64,000 bases of DNA from Candidatus Jordarchaeales archaeon (lineage in GTDB: Archaea; Asgardarchaeota; Jordiarchaeia; Jordiarchaeales; Freyrarchaeaceae): assembly GCA_038889235.1 (NCBI GenBank), contig JAWAHN010000003.1, positions 381,673 through 445,672 of the forward strand, read 5' to 3'. Position 1 is the first letter of the stretch. Each line of letters begins with the position of its first letter. A program made the translations under genes and the position numbers. Shown one piece after another: positions 44,456-49,174 of the stretch. The notes beneath the pieces were generated by a model. The model did not search any database. It was not told the DNA's origin and was given only the letters and a program-made list of their open reading frames with translations.

Positions 44456-45136
44456 TTGAGTGATGCTGTCACCCTTATTGCGCGTGCCGTTGGAGGAGTT
44501 GAAGCCCGCCTCATAATACTTAGAGAGCTTTTAAGTGGGCCGAAGACCGGGGTGGAGTTGAGGTATGCCCTCGCCAGGAGACTGGGTGTCCCCCCTAGGG
44601 CGATCTCGGATGCGAAGATATACTTCAACCTTCAGGCCTTAGAGAACAGCGGAATCATAGTACGCTATAGGGATTGGAAGAACAAGTACGCTGAAATAAA
44701 CCCGAAAATGCTTCAAGCCGTGAGGAAGTATTTGAACATCACTGCTCCTGTTATGTGCCTCGCAGCCCTAGACTCTGAGCCCCTCCTTACAAAAGAGATA
44801 GGGTGGCGTTTAAGGGAGCAAGAAGGAATATCGCCTAGCAGGTACATTTTCATAGCGGAGGACAAAATGAGGGGGAAAATCGGGGGGTTGACGGGGGAAG
44901 CGGAAGTGCTGTGGGTTGACGACGAGACGCTCCACGACTACGAGAGGGTTTACGAAATCGCCGAGGAAGCCCTCAAGAAAGCTATCTCTAAATATGAACC
45001 CATAATCGATGTGACGGACGGGACGAGGGTGACGGTCGCAGCCTTCCAGCAGCTCGCGTGGGAGTATGGGCTCCGCGTCTTCTACCTCAAGGGGAAGCCT
45101 TACGAGAAGAGAAGGGTGGTCTGGATTAGGGGCTAG
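44456..45136 (+). CDS. Winged-helix protein with CARF-like ligand domain
   Basis: A 226-residue protein. Residues 1-90 form a winged-helix domain (ELRYALARRLGVPPRAISDA, then LQALENSGIIVRYRD). Residues 95-226 look like a Rossmann-type CARF domain: an early strand APVMCLAALDSEP and the late motif IIDVTDGTRVTVAAFQQLAW. That late motif matches the DxTGGT-type loop that binds cyclic oligoadenylates in CRISPR-linked CARF proteins, with D in place of the first G. No CRISPR array or cas gene is present in the window. TTG 44456 is used. Its stop codon shares the bases CTAG with the convergent comB gene. Confidence 0.65.
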   Translation: MSDAVTLIARAVGGVEARLIILRELLSGPKTGVELRYALARRLGVPPRAISDAKIYFNLQALENSGIIVRYRDWKNKYAEINPKMLQAVRKYLNITAPVMCLAALDSEPLLTKEIGWRLREQEGISPSRYIFIAEDKMRGKIGGLTGEAEVLWVDDETLHDYERVYEIAEEALKKAISKYEPIIDVTDGTRVTVAAFQQLAWEYGLRVFYLKGKPYEKRRVVWIRG

Positions 45137-45816
45137 TACTCGACGAACATGCCGCCTTTAATCACAGGCACCACGCTGCTCGCGTTTAGCTGGGAGCAGT
45201 ACTCGACATCCCTCCAGAGTCCTATGGAGGCGAGTTCTTTGGCGCTCGGCGAGTTCAAGACGCACTCTTTGTAGTCCGGTGGCTCCCTTCCTTCGACAAA
45301 GCACTTTATAACGCACGCCGTCACATAGTCCTCCGGGCTAAACTCCCCTCTCCTCCCGACGTGGACCACAGTGAGCTTCCTCCCAGTCTTAGTAGCCTCA
45401 CTTCCAGCTGCTTCAGCCACAGCAGAAGCGTTCCTCAGGCAGCCTGCAAATACGGCTGGAGCCCCCATCGCCTGGCAGACCGCTTGCGTGAAGTTAGTGG
45501 TGGTCAAGACTACTATCTTTCCCTCAACGACGTCACGGGTAAACTCCAATGGGGAGTTGCCGAAATCGAAGCCGGGGATCTTCAGCCCTCGCCTCTCGCC
45601 CGCCAGCAGGACGCCAACCCCTCGAGTCCTCAAAAGCTCCCTCGCCTTTCCTACAGCTTCTTCAATAGTGAGCGCTGGGACGACGCCCACGCCTCCATTT
45701 TCTAGTATTGTTGTAACTGTGGTACTGGCTCTCAGCGTGTCCACTACAACCAATATGTGCCCCTTCAATGCGGCTCTTAGAGCGCCTTCGGCGCCGAATG
45801 CCAACCTAACTATCAT
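45133..45816 (-). CDS. comB: 2-phosphosulfolactate phosphatase
   Basis: A 227-residue magnesium-dependent phosphatase that converts 2-phosphosulfolactate to sulfolactate, the second step of coenzyme M synthesis from PEP and sulfite. Family motifs: VVVDTLRASTTVTTILENG near residue 24, LLAGERRGLKIPGFDFGNSP near 70, and LTTTNFTQAV near 104. The gene overlaps comA by four bases. Its presence behind comA is strong support for coenzyme M synthesis, although ComB proteins also occur in some bacteria. Confidence 0.93.
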   Translation of the reverse strand: MIVRLAFGAEGALRAALKGHILVVVDTLRASTTVTTILENGGVGVVPALTIEEAVGKARELLRTRGVGVLLAGERRGLKIPGFDFGNSPLEFTRDVVEGKIVVLTTTNFTQAVCQAMGAPAVFAGCLRNASAVAEAAGSEATKTGRKLTVVHVGRRGEFSPEDYVTACVIKCFVEGREPPDYKECVLNSPSAKELASIGLWRDVEYCSQLNASSVVPVIKGGMFVEY

Positions 45817-46610
45817 TTCAACCCCTTTAAGAGGAGGTCTGGCATCGTATCCCCTCTGAGCCCGAGACGCAACGTTTCGAGCGACACCACGTCCTCCGGG
45901 TGAATGTTACCAAGGTTAACGTCTGGACCAAACCTCTTAATCAGCCACACTTGTTGAGACCTTAGTGGAGCCTCCCATATGATCTTCTCGTGTGGAACGG
46001 CTTGCACGATTGACTCGACAAAGTCCTTCTTCACGTCCCCCTTCGCGTCATAGGGCCCTATTCCGATGCCGCTCTCCCTTGCTTCGACAACAACGTAGTC
46101 AGCCCCGGCTTCGAGTTCACGCTTCATCAGCTCAACTCTTTCCGTGAGGGGGATGGATGCGTCCTCCTCTGGCTTCTTCTTTCCAACCTCGGTGATCACA
46201 GGGTTAAAGCCAAACCTTTTAGCCAGCCTTAGCAGTCCAAGCTTTTCTTCAACATTCATTCTAACAATTCCGTTCGAGATTTCAAGCGAGGAAAAACCTA
46301 ACTCGCGCAGGAAAGAAAGAAACTCCTCAACCTTATCTCTGGCGTAGGCAGCCTCCACGCTCGATCCGCCTGGGAGCGCCATCACCCCAAACTCCTCACA
46401 AAGCTTAATCTTCTCCTTCACAACATTCAGGGGCATGATGAGCCAAGTGCACCAGCCAAACTTCCAAAGGTCAACGTACTCGCCCGCAGCCTCCAAAACA
46501 CTACGCATTTCCGACACACCAATACCACGGTCGATTACCAAAGTTAAACCGCGCGACCTAGGTTTTGAGCACCGCTTCACGAGGGAGAGCTCAAACAACT
46601 GGGGACACAT
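45813..46610 (-). CDS. comA: Phosphosulfolactate synthase
   Basis: A 265-residue TIM-barrel enzyme that adds sulfite to PEP to form phosphosulfolactate, the first step of coenzyme M synthesis. Typical segments are KPRSRGLTLVIDRGIGVSEM at residues 16-35, DLWKFGWCTWLIMP near 50, GVMALPGGSSVEAAYARDK near 75, and VEARESGIGIGPYDAKGDVK near 175. It lies 146 bases behind the small hydrogenase peptide gene on the same strand and overlaps comB. Hydrogenase and CoM synthesis may therefore share a transcript. Confidence 0.94.
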   Translation of the reverse strand: MCPQLFELSLVKRCSKPRSRGLTLVIDRGIGVSEMRSVLEAAGEYVDLWKFGWCTWLIMPLNVVKEKIKLCEEFGVMALPGGSSVEAAYARDKVEEFLSFLRELGFSSLEISNGIVRMNVEEKLGLLRLAKRFGFNPVITEVGKKKPEEDASIPLTERVELMKRELEAGADYVVVEARESGIGIGPYDAKGDVKKDFVESIVQAVPHEKIIWEAPLRSQQVWLIKRFGPDVNLGNIHPEDVVSLETLRLGLRGDTMPDLLLKGLK

Positions 46611-46663
46611 AGCACCACCCGACCCATACTACCAAAAAAATCGCCATTAAAATCTAGCGCGAA

Positions 46664-46756
46664 AGAAGGAAGGGAAAGGGCATCCCCCTGCTAGGGGGCG
46701 GTCCCCACCCCCGCTGGACCTTTCAGGGGATGAGTCATCCCCAGCCCGGGAACCCT
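46664..46756 (-). other. GC-rich structured 3' region behind the hydrogenase peptide gene, SECIS candidate region
   Basis: Directly after the stop of the small gene the leftward transcript carries several perfect stems: GGGGAT-GACTC-ATCCCC, GGGGG-n9-CCCCC and CCCCC-TAGCA-GGGGG, plus AAAGGG at one end and CCCTTT at the other. A UGAAA lies between stems. Archaeal SECIS elements sit in 3' UTRs and have a GAA/A internal loop near a short GC stem. I cannot place that motif convincingly by eye, so the SECIS role is only a candidate. A terminator or comA leader function is also possible. Confidence 0.4.
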
Positions 46757-46906
46757 TTAAGACTCGCTCAGCTCAATAGTCTTCTCAGCGATTTTCTCGC
46801 CCTTGTGGTTGACGACAACCAGGTGGGCGGCACAACCAAGTCAGCAGTCGTAAGCCCGCATGATAACCTCAATCAAGTTTAAGAGTTTAGGATCCAACTC
46901 CACCAT
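46757..46906 (-). CDS. vhuU: VhuU-like hydrogenase peptide with probable selenocysteine (in-frame TGA)
   Basis: A 49-codon gene. It starts at ATG 46906 after GGGAGG and ends at TAA, with one in-frame TGA at codon 22. It reads MVELDPKLLNLIEVIMRAYD, then C, TGA, LGCAAH, then a 21-residue tail. [NiFe]-hydrogenase large subunits end in DPCxxCxxH, which binds the Ni-Fe site. Here D-C-TGA-L-G-C-A-A-H puts TGA at the first cysteine. MvhA, 19 bases upstream, lacks this motif. In Methanococcus the same part is a separate selenocysteine peptide, VhuU. The cysteine in place of proline before the TGA is unusual. The tail would be removed by a maturation protease. Selenocysteine decoding itself is inferred. 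Confidence 0.85.
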
Positions 46907-46925: not shown

Positions 46926-48248
46926 CTACTTAAACCAAGGCTCCGGGAACTTAAGCTTCTCGTGAATTCTTTCCTCCAGAACCTGCTTAGCTGCGACCAA
47001 CATCGACTTTTCAACCGCGGCGATGTTGTTGTTAGTCGCCACGATAAGGTTCGCCTTCCTTATTACACCTTCATCGTCAGTCCAATAGTTGTATATCAAT
47101 GTTCCACGTGGCGCCTCGACGATAGCTACACCGTTACCCTCCCTTGGACGCACGTCGGCACGCTTAACATCGGAGCTAACTATCTCAGGGTCTTCTAGGA
47201 GCTTCCTGGCTTTCTCTATGGCTTCCATTAGCTCGACTATCCTAGCCCAGTTGTAAGCCAGCGTTGCGTGGCATGGCCTCCCAACAGCGTCCCTGAACTC
47301 CTTAAGCAGCTCCTGAGCTCTGGGAGTCTCCATCTTGTCAGCTACGTTGAGCCTAGCTAGTGGGCCGGCTCGCCATATACCTTCGGGGTACCCTGCAGGC
47401 TTGAAGAATATGTGTGTCGCGTAGGAGTGAGGAGCAACGTGCTCGCCAACATACTGCAAGTAGTCTTTCTTCGGGAAGTCTGCCACAATCTTACCTTCAG
47501 GGTCCATAACCCTGACGGTTGCTTTCCTGTCGTAAATTGTGTGAACACCGTTAACATTCAGCCCAACATAGTAGGTTGGAACTACGCCAAGCTTCGTGAT
47601 CACGTCCAAGTAGCCTTCAACAACTTTCCTCGCAACTTCAATAGTGAAGTCCATAAGTCCCTCTGCTTCGTCGATGAGCTTTAGCAGCCTGTCCCGCTCC
47701 TCCTCAGTAAGCCTTTTCGCTTGACCGCCCGGAACACCAGTCACCGGGTGAACTGAGCGGCCTCCGATGGTCTTAACAATCTCTTGGCCAATCCTCATCA
47801 GAGCGATGGCTTTCTTGACAGCGTCGGGCATATGCTTGAAAACACCTACAAGGTTTCTAATCGACGGGTCGGCGAACGGTCCAGCGAGGAAGTCCGGGGC
47901 GGCTAGAGCGTAGAAGTGTAGAGCGTGACTTGAAATCTGCTTACCTTGCATCATCAGGTCTCTAAGCTTCACGGCAGCGCTGGGCGGTTCAACATCCCAT
48001 GCTGCTTCAACAGCCTCAACCGAGCAGACGTGGTGGGGCACGGGGCATATGCCGCAGATACGTGGCGTCAGTATTGGTGCTTCTTCAGCAAGCCTGCCCT
48101 CAAGGAACTTTTCGAACATACGTGTCAGCGTAACACAGAACTTAAGGTCCTTTACTCCGCCTTTCTCGTCCAGCTCGATTACCACATTCGCGTGTCCTTC
48201 AAGCCTTGTCGCAGGCTCGATAACAACAGTCTTTTCCTTCTTGCTCAT
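46926..48248 (-). CDS. mvhA: F420-non-reducing hydrogenase, large subunit lacking the C-terminal motif
   Basis: A 440-residue group 3c [NiFe] large subunit. The N-terminal nickel motif is present (TPRICGICPVPHHVCSVEA, residues 61-79), as are GVPGGQAKRLTEEE and HATLAYNWARIVELMEAIE. The protein ends at KLKFPEPWFK and has no DPCxxCxxH, so alone it could not build the active site. The missing piece is encoded by the next gene. This is VhuA/VhuU-type splitting, not truncation by damage, because the reading frame ends cleanly and a new ribosome site follows. MvhA feeds electrons from H2 to MvhG, MvhD and HdrA. Confidence 0.95.
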   Translation of the reverse strand: MSKKEKTVVIEPATRLEGHANVVIELDEKGGVKDLKFCVTLTRMFEKFLEGRLAEEAPILTPRICGICPVPHHVCSVEAVEAAWDVEPPSAAVKLRDLMMQGKQISSHALHFYALAAPDFLAGPFADPSIRNLVGVFKHMPDAVKKAIALMRIGQEIVKTIGGRSVHPVTGVPGGQAKRLTEEERDRLLKLIDEAEGLMDFTIEVARKVVEGYLDVITKLGVVPTYYVGLNVNGVHTIYDRKATVRVMDPEGKIVADFPKKDYLQYVGEHVAPHSYATHIFFKPAGYPEGIWRAGPLARLNVADKMETPRAQELLKEFRDAVGRPCHATLAYNWARIVELMEAIEKARKLLEDPEIVSSDVKRADVRPREGNGVAIVEAPRGTLIYNYWTDDEGVIRKANLIVATNNNIAAVEKSMLVAAKQVLEERIHEKLKFPEPWFK

Positions 48249-48262
48249 CTACCAACACCCAC

Positions 48263-49174
48263 CTACTTCTTTTTAGACACGGCTTTCGGTATTATCGAGG
48301 ACGGTAAGGTAAACTTTGAGAACGTACCCACAACGTCTTTGACTGATTGAACAAGCTCCTCTGGGCTAACCGACTCGTAGTCCACTATGCTCGCTAAGGC
48401 GCTGAGCATCTTTGCTCCCTGGTCTAAAACGTTTGGTCCGGGGCCCATGCAGCCTCTGCACGGCACCCCCGCCCTCGTGCAAACGGCTCCACACCCCTCC
48501 CTGGTCGCTGGCCCCATGCATATGTAGCCCTGCTCTAAGAGGCATTTTTCGGGGTCAGGTATGCCTTCAAACGCCCTCTTAACCTTCTTTATGGTTATGA
48601 CTTCCGATTTGACGCGTGGGCATTCGTCACAAAGCGTCCTTTCCTTGAGCTTTGGCATTTCTCCTCTTAGTAAGCTGGTGACCACTTCAGCTATCAGGGG
48701 CGGCTCGGGCGGGCATCCCGGAAGGAAGAGGTCGTATTTAACGTACTCGCGGTTTGGCTTAACGTACTCGAGCATCTTGGGGACATGCATGTCCGGGATT
48801 TTCTTGTCGACAACGCTTTCGGCTTCCATGAACTTCCGCTTTAAGCCTTCATCTATCTGGTAGAGGTTTAGCAGCGCTGGGCTTCCGCCGTAAGTCGAAC
48901 AGGTGCCGTATGATACGAGCAGCTTGCACTTCTGCCTTGCAAGTTTCAACAAGTATAAGTCTTCTTCCGTCCTACAGAAGCCCTCGGTGAACCCTACGTC
49001 GACCGAGCCGTCGGGGAGCTTTTCAACGTCATGCAACTTGTAGTCTACTACGGTGTGCCAGTATACTATTTCAAGTTGAGGTAGGACGTCGGCGAGGGTT
49101 TCATGTAAGTCTACGAGACTCTGGTGGCACCCCCAACAAGAGGCGAGTTGTACAAACATAACCTTTACAGGCAT
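48263..49174 (-). CDS. mvhG: F420-non-reducing hydrogenase, small subunit
   Basis: A 303-residue electron-transfer subunit of the Mvh hydrogenase. The proximal cluster ligands include ASCWGCHQSLVDLHE (residues 11-25) and VSYGTCSTYGGSPAL (near 95), with LFLPGCPPEPPLIAEVV near 152. The C-terminal part has further cysteines (CLLEQGYICMGPATREGCG, then CTRAGVPCRGCMGPGP) for the medial and distal clusters. It lies between mvhD and mvhA with 11-14 base gaps. The absence of a signal peptide fits a cytoplasmic group 3 enzyme. Confidence 0.95.
   Translation of the reverse strand: MPVKVMFVQLASCWGCHQSLVDLHETLADVLPQLEIVYWHTVVDYKLHDVEKLPDGSVDVGFTEGFCRTEEDLYLLKLARQKCKLLVSYGTCSTYGGSPALLNLYQIDEGLKRKFMEAESVVDKKIPDMHVPKMLEYVKPNREYVKYDLFLPGCPPEPPLIAEVVTSLLRGEMPKLKERTLCDECPRVKSEVITIKKVKRAFEGIPDPEKCLLEQGYICMGPATREGCGAVCTRAGVPCRGCMGPGPNVLDQGAKMLSALASIVDYESVSPEELVQSVKDVVGTFSKFTLPSSIIPKAVSKKK

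Follow-up and report, generated by a model that had tools for sequence, protein, structure and literature searches.

The Sec insertion elements described in Asgard archaea are eSECIS-like (Huang et al. 2024): a core of the form AUGA_[G/A]A carries an upper stem and an A-rich loop, to which frhA adds a short lower stem, UGG_CC[A/G] (PMC11227280). The model asks for an upper stem of 7–15 bp with at most 2 mismatches and an apical loop of 8–20 nt, and its type I is described as following Mariotti et al. 2016 (PMC11227280). The same study reports GAA_A-like structures, judged non-functional, for 3.4% of Asgard selenoprotein genes, and states that hdrA and frhD share one SECIS (PMC11227280). The lokiarchaeal SECIS has just one apical loop according to a 2022 review (PMC9499178) and is non-functional in Methanococcus (PMC11881835); in methanogens, a SECIS trimmed to a minimal single stem-loop without flanks is fully functional (PMC9622424). 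SBP2 is not known from any archaeon, and the SelB of archaea has been reported not to bind its own SECIS (PMC9499178, PMC11881835).

Here we analyse a 64,000-nt stretch of Jordarchaeum DNA (the window), in which positions 46664–46756, read on the minus strand, very probably hold the 3′-UTR Sec insertion element of vhuU. By sequence comparison, this element combines an eSECIS-like type I stem-loop, P2, with a second hairpin, P3, the two being enclosed in most lineages by a further helix, P1.

A Sec-encoding vhuU and its genome

The gene in front of the element, picked out in the preliminary description for its TGA, is vhuU (46757–46906, minus strand), which encodes 49 aa when TGA is translated as U (MVELDPKLLNLIEVIMRAYDCULGCAAHLVVVNHKGEKIAEKTIELSES). 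VhuU is the Sec-containing C-terminal peptide of the large subunit of F420-non-reducing [NiFeSe] hydrogenase, encoded as a separate small ORF beside vhuA. Its UGA (Sec) codon, codon 22 (46841–46843, minus strand; codon context GACTGCTGACTT), falls in the motif RAYDCULGCAAH (DCUxxCxxH), where it takes the place of the first Cys in the nickel-binding motif at the C terminus. The first gene upstream, vhuA (46926–48248, minus strand), encodes the hydrogenase large subunit; its product matches NCBIfam VhuA at 513.9 bits, under the curated cut-off of 800, as well as Pfam PF00374, is without a C-terminal DCUxxCxxH motif, like split [NiFeSe] hydrogenases, and has its closest named relatives in Candidatus Jordarchaeum MAGs, at 83–90% identity. 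With vhuG (48263–49174, minus strand) ahead of vhuA, the gene order is vhuG, vhuA, vhuU, UTR, comA/comB. The vhu genes are followed directly by comA and comB (45133–46610, minus strand), which encode the phosphosulfolactate synthase and phosphatase of the coenzyme M pathway. A phylum-wide search matched 195 of 227 Asgard genomes, with about 130 split vhuU that carry an internal TGA and a few in which Cys stands instead.

As would a Sec-utilising archaeon, the vhuU-bearing genome encodes SelB, SepSecS (497.6 bits), PSTK (192 bits, under its model's cut-off) and SelD, together with a tRNA-Sec candidate. The control for SelB profile PF21208 was silent, and SelB was identified instead in the ORF adjoining SepSecS: selB lies directly upstream of sepsecS, near C1:351–353k, and matches TIGR00475 at 307.7 bits, above the cut-off, and aSelB_III. 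The selD gene has a TGA, as do hdrA and frhD. The tRNA-Sec candidate (L226; G000:C1:336000–336136, minus strand) scores below the Rfam cut-off and has a CUUCAAA anticodon loop, a 9-bp acceptor stem and two inserts, of 12 nt after the anticodon and 18 nt after the T arm, which are possibly introns. Another tRNA-Sec match, at C2:40794, was rejected as a tRNA-Leu; its anticodon-stem sequence reads CUUAAGAUC.

These observations bear on the simplest alternative, in which translation simply stops at the TGA of a decayed vhuU and the hairpins behind it are GC-rich noise. The organism is known from metagenome assemblies only, and the folding energy of the stretch equals that of shuffled sequences, as such noise would have it, but almost every split vhuU in the phylum retains the TGA along with the frame downstream of it (about 130 genes), the Sec machinery of the genome is complete, and relatives show covariation in the UTR helices. 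We give decay practically no weight. The proposal of a lineage-specific, non-canonical SECIS made in the preliminary description was largely right, with the Sec of vhuU in a DCUxxC motif and the Sec machinery present.

An eSECIS-like stem-loop followed by a second hairpin

The stretch had been singled out as GC-rich and dense in hairpins, and it is both: its G+C content is 67%, against 51% in the window, and stems of 6–8 bp can be drawn at 46726–46733/46735–46742, 46681–46687/46726–46732, 46684–46689/46693–46698 and 46675–46680/46753–46758. The 93-mer folds at −45.2 kcal/mol, against a mean of −45.3 kcal/mol in dinucleotide shuffles (z = 0.02); its stability is at chance level, and the stems are therefore what GC-richness would give. 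Folding of 46611–46760 (minus strand) likewise gave z = −0.16, and an Rfam scan returned no SECIS-like match and no matching model. Because folding of the window by itself is uninformative, the evidence for an element is comparative.

Comparison of 4 Jordarchaeum genomes places the element at about 46678–46747 in a UTR that starts at 46756; the coordinates originally proposed are accurate. Read on the minus strand, it has AUGA (46735–46738), the 5′ side of a kink-turn-like quartet, invariant in the 4 genomes; the 5′ strand of P2, CUCAUCCCC (46726–46734); an apical loop, UGAAAGGUCCAGC (46713–46725); the 3′ strand of P2, GGGGGUGGG (46704–46712); and GA (46702–46703), the 3′ side of the quartet, which is AA in the 3 congeners. 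Both strands of P2 were assigned by RNAalifold of the genus. P2 is the known part of the element and fits the published eSECIS-like type I model. Its AUGA and GA agree with GA_[G/A]A preceded by AU (PMC11227280), its upper stem has 9 bp with no mismatch and two G-U pairs, and its 13-nt loop starts with unpaired adenines, an AAA that is invariant in the genus and in 87 of 87 vhuU elements. Below the quartet, GG (46741–46742) pairs with CC (46700–46701) in a lower stem like the [U/C]GG_C[C/U][A/G] of frhA genes (PMC11227280).

P3 comes next as CCCCC-UAGCA-GGGGG (46684–46698), with GC in its loop and a stem identical in the 4 genomes. The strands of P1, GGGC (46744–46747) and GCCC (46678–46681), were proposed by RNAalifold of the genus and are weakly supported within it; AAAGGG (46753–46758) with CCCUUU (46675–46680) is an alternative P1. 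RNAalifold proposes P1, the lower stem, P2 and P3 from the genus alone, and P1, P2 and P3 from Thorarchaeia alone. The several stems first noted thus include the SECIS stem-loop, the second hairpin and a short closing stem, but GGGGAUGA/UCAUCCCC, among the most conspicuous of them, is not kept in relatives and is a competing local fold.

The other 3 Jordarchaeum genomes each have AUGA, a 9-bp stem, AAA and [G/A]A, followed by CCCCC-(U)AGCA-GGGGG. In the genus alignment (n = 4), the conserved pairs are all standard (64 of 64 cells), and two-sided changes occur at 2 of the 9 P2 pairs, a result equalled by 28 of 500 shuffles because just four sequences exist. P3 is invariant in the genus and so gains no covariation support from Jordarchaeum alone, and in a swap test within Jordarchaeum alone the short P1 was indistinguishable from between-family swaps. 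The main weakness of the proposed structure is that the energy model, applied to the element as it stands in the window, prefers a different fold by 8 kcal/mol: constrained to P2 and P3 the sequence reaches −38.6 kcal/mol, whereas its best fold, with a local GGGGAUG/CAUCCCC hairpin, reaches −47.0 kcal/mol. In the relatives L005 and L006, the proposed fold is at or near the energy optimum.

The invariant positions also speak to whether this could be a canonical archaeal SECIS of the methanogen type, with a GAA_A internal loop, which the preliminary description could not place with certainty. The apical part does contain a GAA trinucleotide (CCCCUGAAAGG), and in Freyarchaeia relatives P2 is topped by UGAAACCC..GGGAAGA. 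Jordarchaeum does not conserve its GAA, however: 2 of the 4 genomes (L005 and L006) read CAAAA at that site, and what is invariant is AUGA, AAA and [G/A]A. The non-functional verdict on Asgard GAA_A-like structures (PMC11227280) and the failure of the lokiarchaeal SECIS in Methanococcus (PMC11881835) count against the canonical type as well. We consider it very improbable and rejected it for the vhuU element.

Conservation and covariation across Asgard archaea

The vhuU comparison covered 92 distinct 3′ regions, with element counts taken from 87 vhuU elements; the lineage labels of its Lokiarchaeia-like (f3) and Thorarchaeia-like (f4) groups are inferred from published apical-loop motifs and genome features. 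The same layout of P2 and P3 lies behind vhuU in congeners and, with different sequence, across Asgard archaea, and by this recurrence, unlike by its folding energy, it goes beyond chance. Loss of structure in relatives that keep the TGA had been named as an observation that would count against a SECIS; relatives keeping the TGA also keep the structure.

The base preceding the UGA of the quartet is A in 76 of 87 elements, and in 78 of 87 that UGA is the vhuU stop codon itself. Since stop codon and quartet coincide in most lineages, the final sense codons supply one arm of P1 and the sequence after P3 the other, as GUGACUGGCG/CGCUGGUCGC in Thorarchaeia and GUUGGUU/AACCAAC in Lokiarchaeia; the Jordarchaeum element is shifted about 20 nt into the UTR. 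By enclosing P2 and P3 in most Asgard lineages, P1 would create a three-way junction. The P3 loop contains GC in 86 of 87 vhuU elements, against 18% expected, and P2 and P3 are 2–8 nt apart in vhuU and about 2–10 nt apart over all selenoprotein families.

In Thorarchaeia vhuU (n = 35), 92.1%, 90.2% and 96.4% of cells are paired in P1, P2 and P3, respectively. Two-sided changes occur there at 14 of 21 pairs, in 85 cells compared with 26.6 in shuffles and 11–19 with the partner slid; P1 alone accounts for 24 such cells (7.5 in shuffles, 2–7 slid) and P3 alone for 11 (4.1 in shuffles), all from a single pair. The corresponding paired fractions in Lokiarchaeia vhuU (n = 29) are 93.6%, 98.7% and 96.6%, with 37 two-sided cells against 11.3 in shuffles and 0–6 slid, 13 of them in P1 (5.2 in shuffles, 0–2 slid). 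One Lokiarchaeia P1 position coincides with the third position of a Gly codon, GGU being matched by A and GGC by G across the helix (UA 15, CG 9); here the UTR follows a synonymous change in the coding sequence. Judged from these alignments, the predicted helices P1, P2 and P3 all covary in Thorarchaeia and Lokiarchaeia vhuU. Native P1 arms of vhuU, moreover, pair at −18.5 kcal/mol, compared with −12.2 kcal/mol for arms deranged between families (0.05% overlap).

A vhuU paralogue with Cys, L033, has neither SECIS nor P3. Another, L084 (G188), has no SECIS and carries a strong hairpin with a GC-less loop, CUCCCCC-AUCA-GGGGGAG, behind its stop, which may be a P3 remnant or a coincidence. Separately, two Lokiarchaeia-like vhuU (L022 and L122) have TAA or TAG before the usual UGA stop and keep the SECIS further downstream.

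A descriptor of P2 plus P3 matched once in the 64-kb window (both strands), at the vhuU element, and 12 Markov-simulated windows gave 2 matches in total. Run on 1.47 Mb of strands, it gave 87 matches at 99 vhuU loci, 28 at 49 selD loci and 52 others, many of these being hdrA/frhD elements or more copies of vhuU and selD elements. Its thresholds were set after the elements had been seen and tuned on the same data, so these counts gauge rarity and are not independent proof.

Elements at selD, hdrA and frhD

P3 follows the stem-loop in each selenoprotein gene family examined, namely vhuU, selD, hdrA and frhD, and the genome of the window has P2 and P3 behind selD, hdrA and frhD as well. The selD elements at 46 Asgard loci have the same P1, P2 and P3, with GC in the P3 loop in 39 of 46. 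Their P1 changes from GAGACCG/CGGUCUC to GAGGCCG/CGGCCUC (L250) and GAAACCG/CGGUUUC (L260), and native selD P1 arms pair at −12.7 kcal/mol versus −9.0 kcal/mol when deranged. In some Thorarchaeia-like genomes (L237–L242), a selD without TGA occurs in open frames of 530–780 aa, apparently fused to another domain, beside or in place of the Sec form.

The hdrA and frhD genes of Jordarchaeum (L203:2201 and L203:2803; G000:C1, about 748.7k and 749.3k) have their own P2 and P3 each, one element lying between both genes and one after frhD. HdrA (CKUG, CAIU) and FrhD (WKUG, VGUH) apparently have two Sec codons apiece. At a second frhD (L202:2637; G000:C1, about 441.6k), P2 lies in the last codons and P3 spans the stop, an arrangement repeated in L204, L206 and L208.

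The distribution of P3 bears on a narrower reading, in which P2 alone is the SECIS, P3 marks the mRNA 3′ end, stabilises the mRNA or terminates transcription, and the pairing in P1 is fortuitous. Such a division would suit the published model, which comprises only core, upper stem, apical loop and short lower stem (PMC11227280), and the full activity of minimal flankless SECIS in methanogens (PMC9622424); moreover, P3 in most genes stands shortly ahead of the presumed transcript end and is followed by pyrimidine-rich sequence. Several observations argue against it. First, the Jordarchaeum P3 inside the hdrA–frhD pair and the one across the stop of the second frhD are at poor sites for a terminator. 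Second, the loop GC is kept in vhuU and selD and the spacing from P2 in vhuU is narrow; P3 does not behave as an intrinsic-terminator-like hairpin, confined to operon ends and free in loop sequence. Third, P1 covaries, including at synonymous third positions of vhuU that the UTR tracks. Fourth, of the Cys-encoding vhuU, L033 is without both hairpins, and L084 is without the SECIS and has a hairpin whose loop lacks GC. We regard P2 alone as unlikely.

A possible role for the second hairpin

To our knowledge, no SBP2 has been reported from Asgard archaea. In the composite that we favour for the vhuU UTR, the G·A quartet would form a kink-turn, and P1 and P3 would either hold it in a fixed orientation or bind a recognition factor; the element is presumably recognised by a protein. 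The composite could recruit SelB and Sec-tRNA-Sec, directly or through an Asgard SECIS-binding factor. By analogy with known pathways, SelB would then deliver Sec-tRNA-Sec and the ribosome would read UGA 22 as Sec, which would stand in for the Cys that normally coordinates nickel in this split VhuA/VhuU hydrogenase. We suggest tentatively, and at somewhat less than even odds, that the Asgard SECIS is a composite three-way-junction RNA in which P3 is the docking site for the missing archaeal recognition factor or for SelB.

P3 and P1 offer a concrete RNA target in the search for the factor that recognises archaeal SECIS. P3 and a closing helix recur across four families of selenoprotein genes in the closest known relatives of eukaryotes, and reporter constructs with the stem-loop only may miss part of the element. 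If the construct used in Methanococcus lacked P3 and P1, this could be one reason for the failure of the lokiarchaeal SECIS there. If the docking proposal is true, the eukaryotic SECIS would be a descendant of P2 that had lost P3 and P1 when SBP2 took over.

Comparison with known SECIS types

The closest described element is the Asgard eSECIS-like type I (PMC11227280), with which the elements here share the core, the upper stem, the AAA at the loop start, the frhA-type lower stem and the position in the 3′-UTR of vhuU. They differ in having P3 and an enclosing P1, neither of which is in the published text, and in that hdrA and frhD each have their own SECIS rather than one shared between them. 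P3 and P1 are absent from the recent descriptions of Asgard and archaeal SECIS compared here, which give a single stem-loop only. What is probably new is the conserved second hairpin P3 with its usually enclosing P1, an earlier description in the founding work of Mariotti et al. 2016 being possible.

The methanogen GAA_A SECIS (PMC9622424, PMC11881835) is likewise a 3′-UTR element for Sec at UGA, served by the archaeal SelB/SepSecS/PSTK pathway, but it can be trimmed to a single stem-loop, and its conserved GAA_A bulge with S-S pairs has no counterpart here. With the eukaryotic SECIS of type I, the Asgard element shares the AUGA...GA non-Watson-Crick quartet and the unpaired adenines of the apical loop; unlike it, the Asgard element has an adjacent second hairpin, and in most Asgard lineages its quartet and the stop codon overlap, with a helix extending into the coding region.
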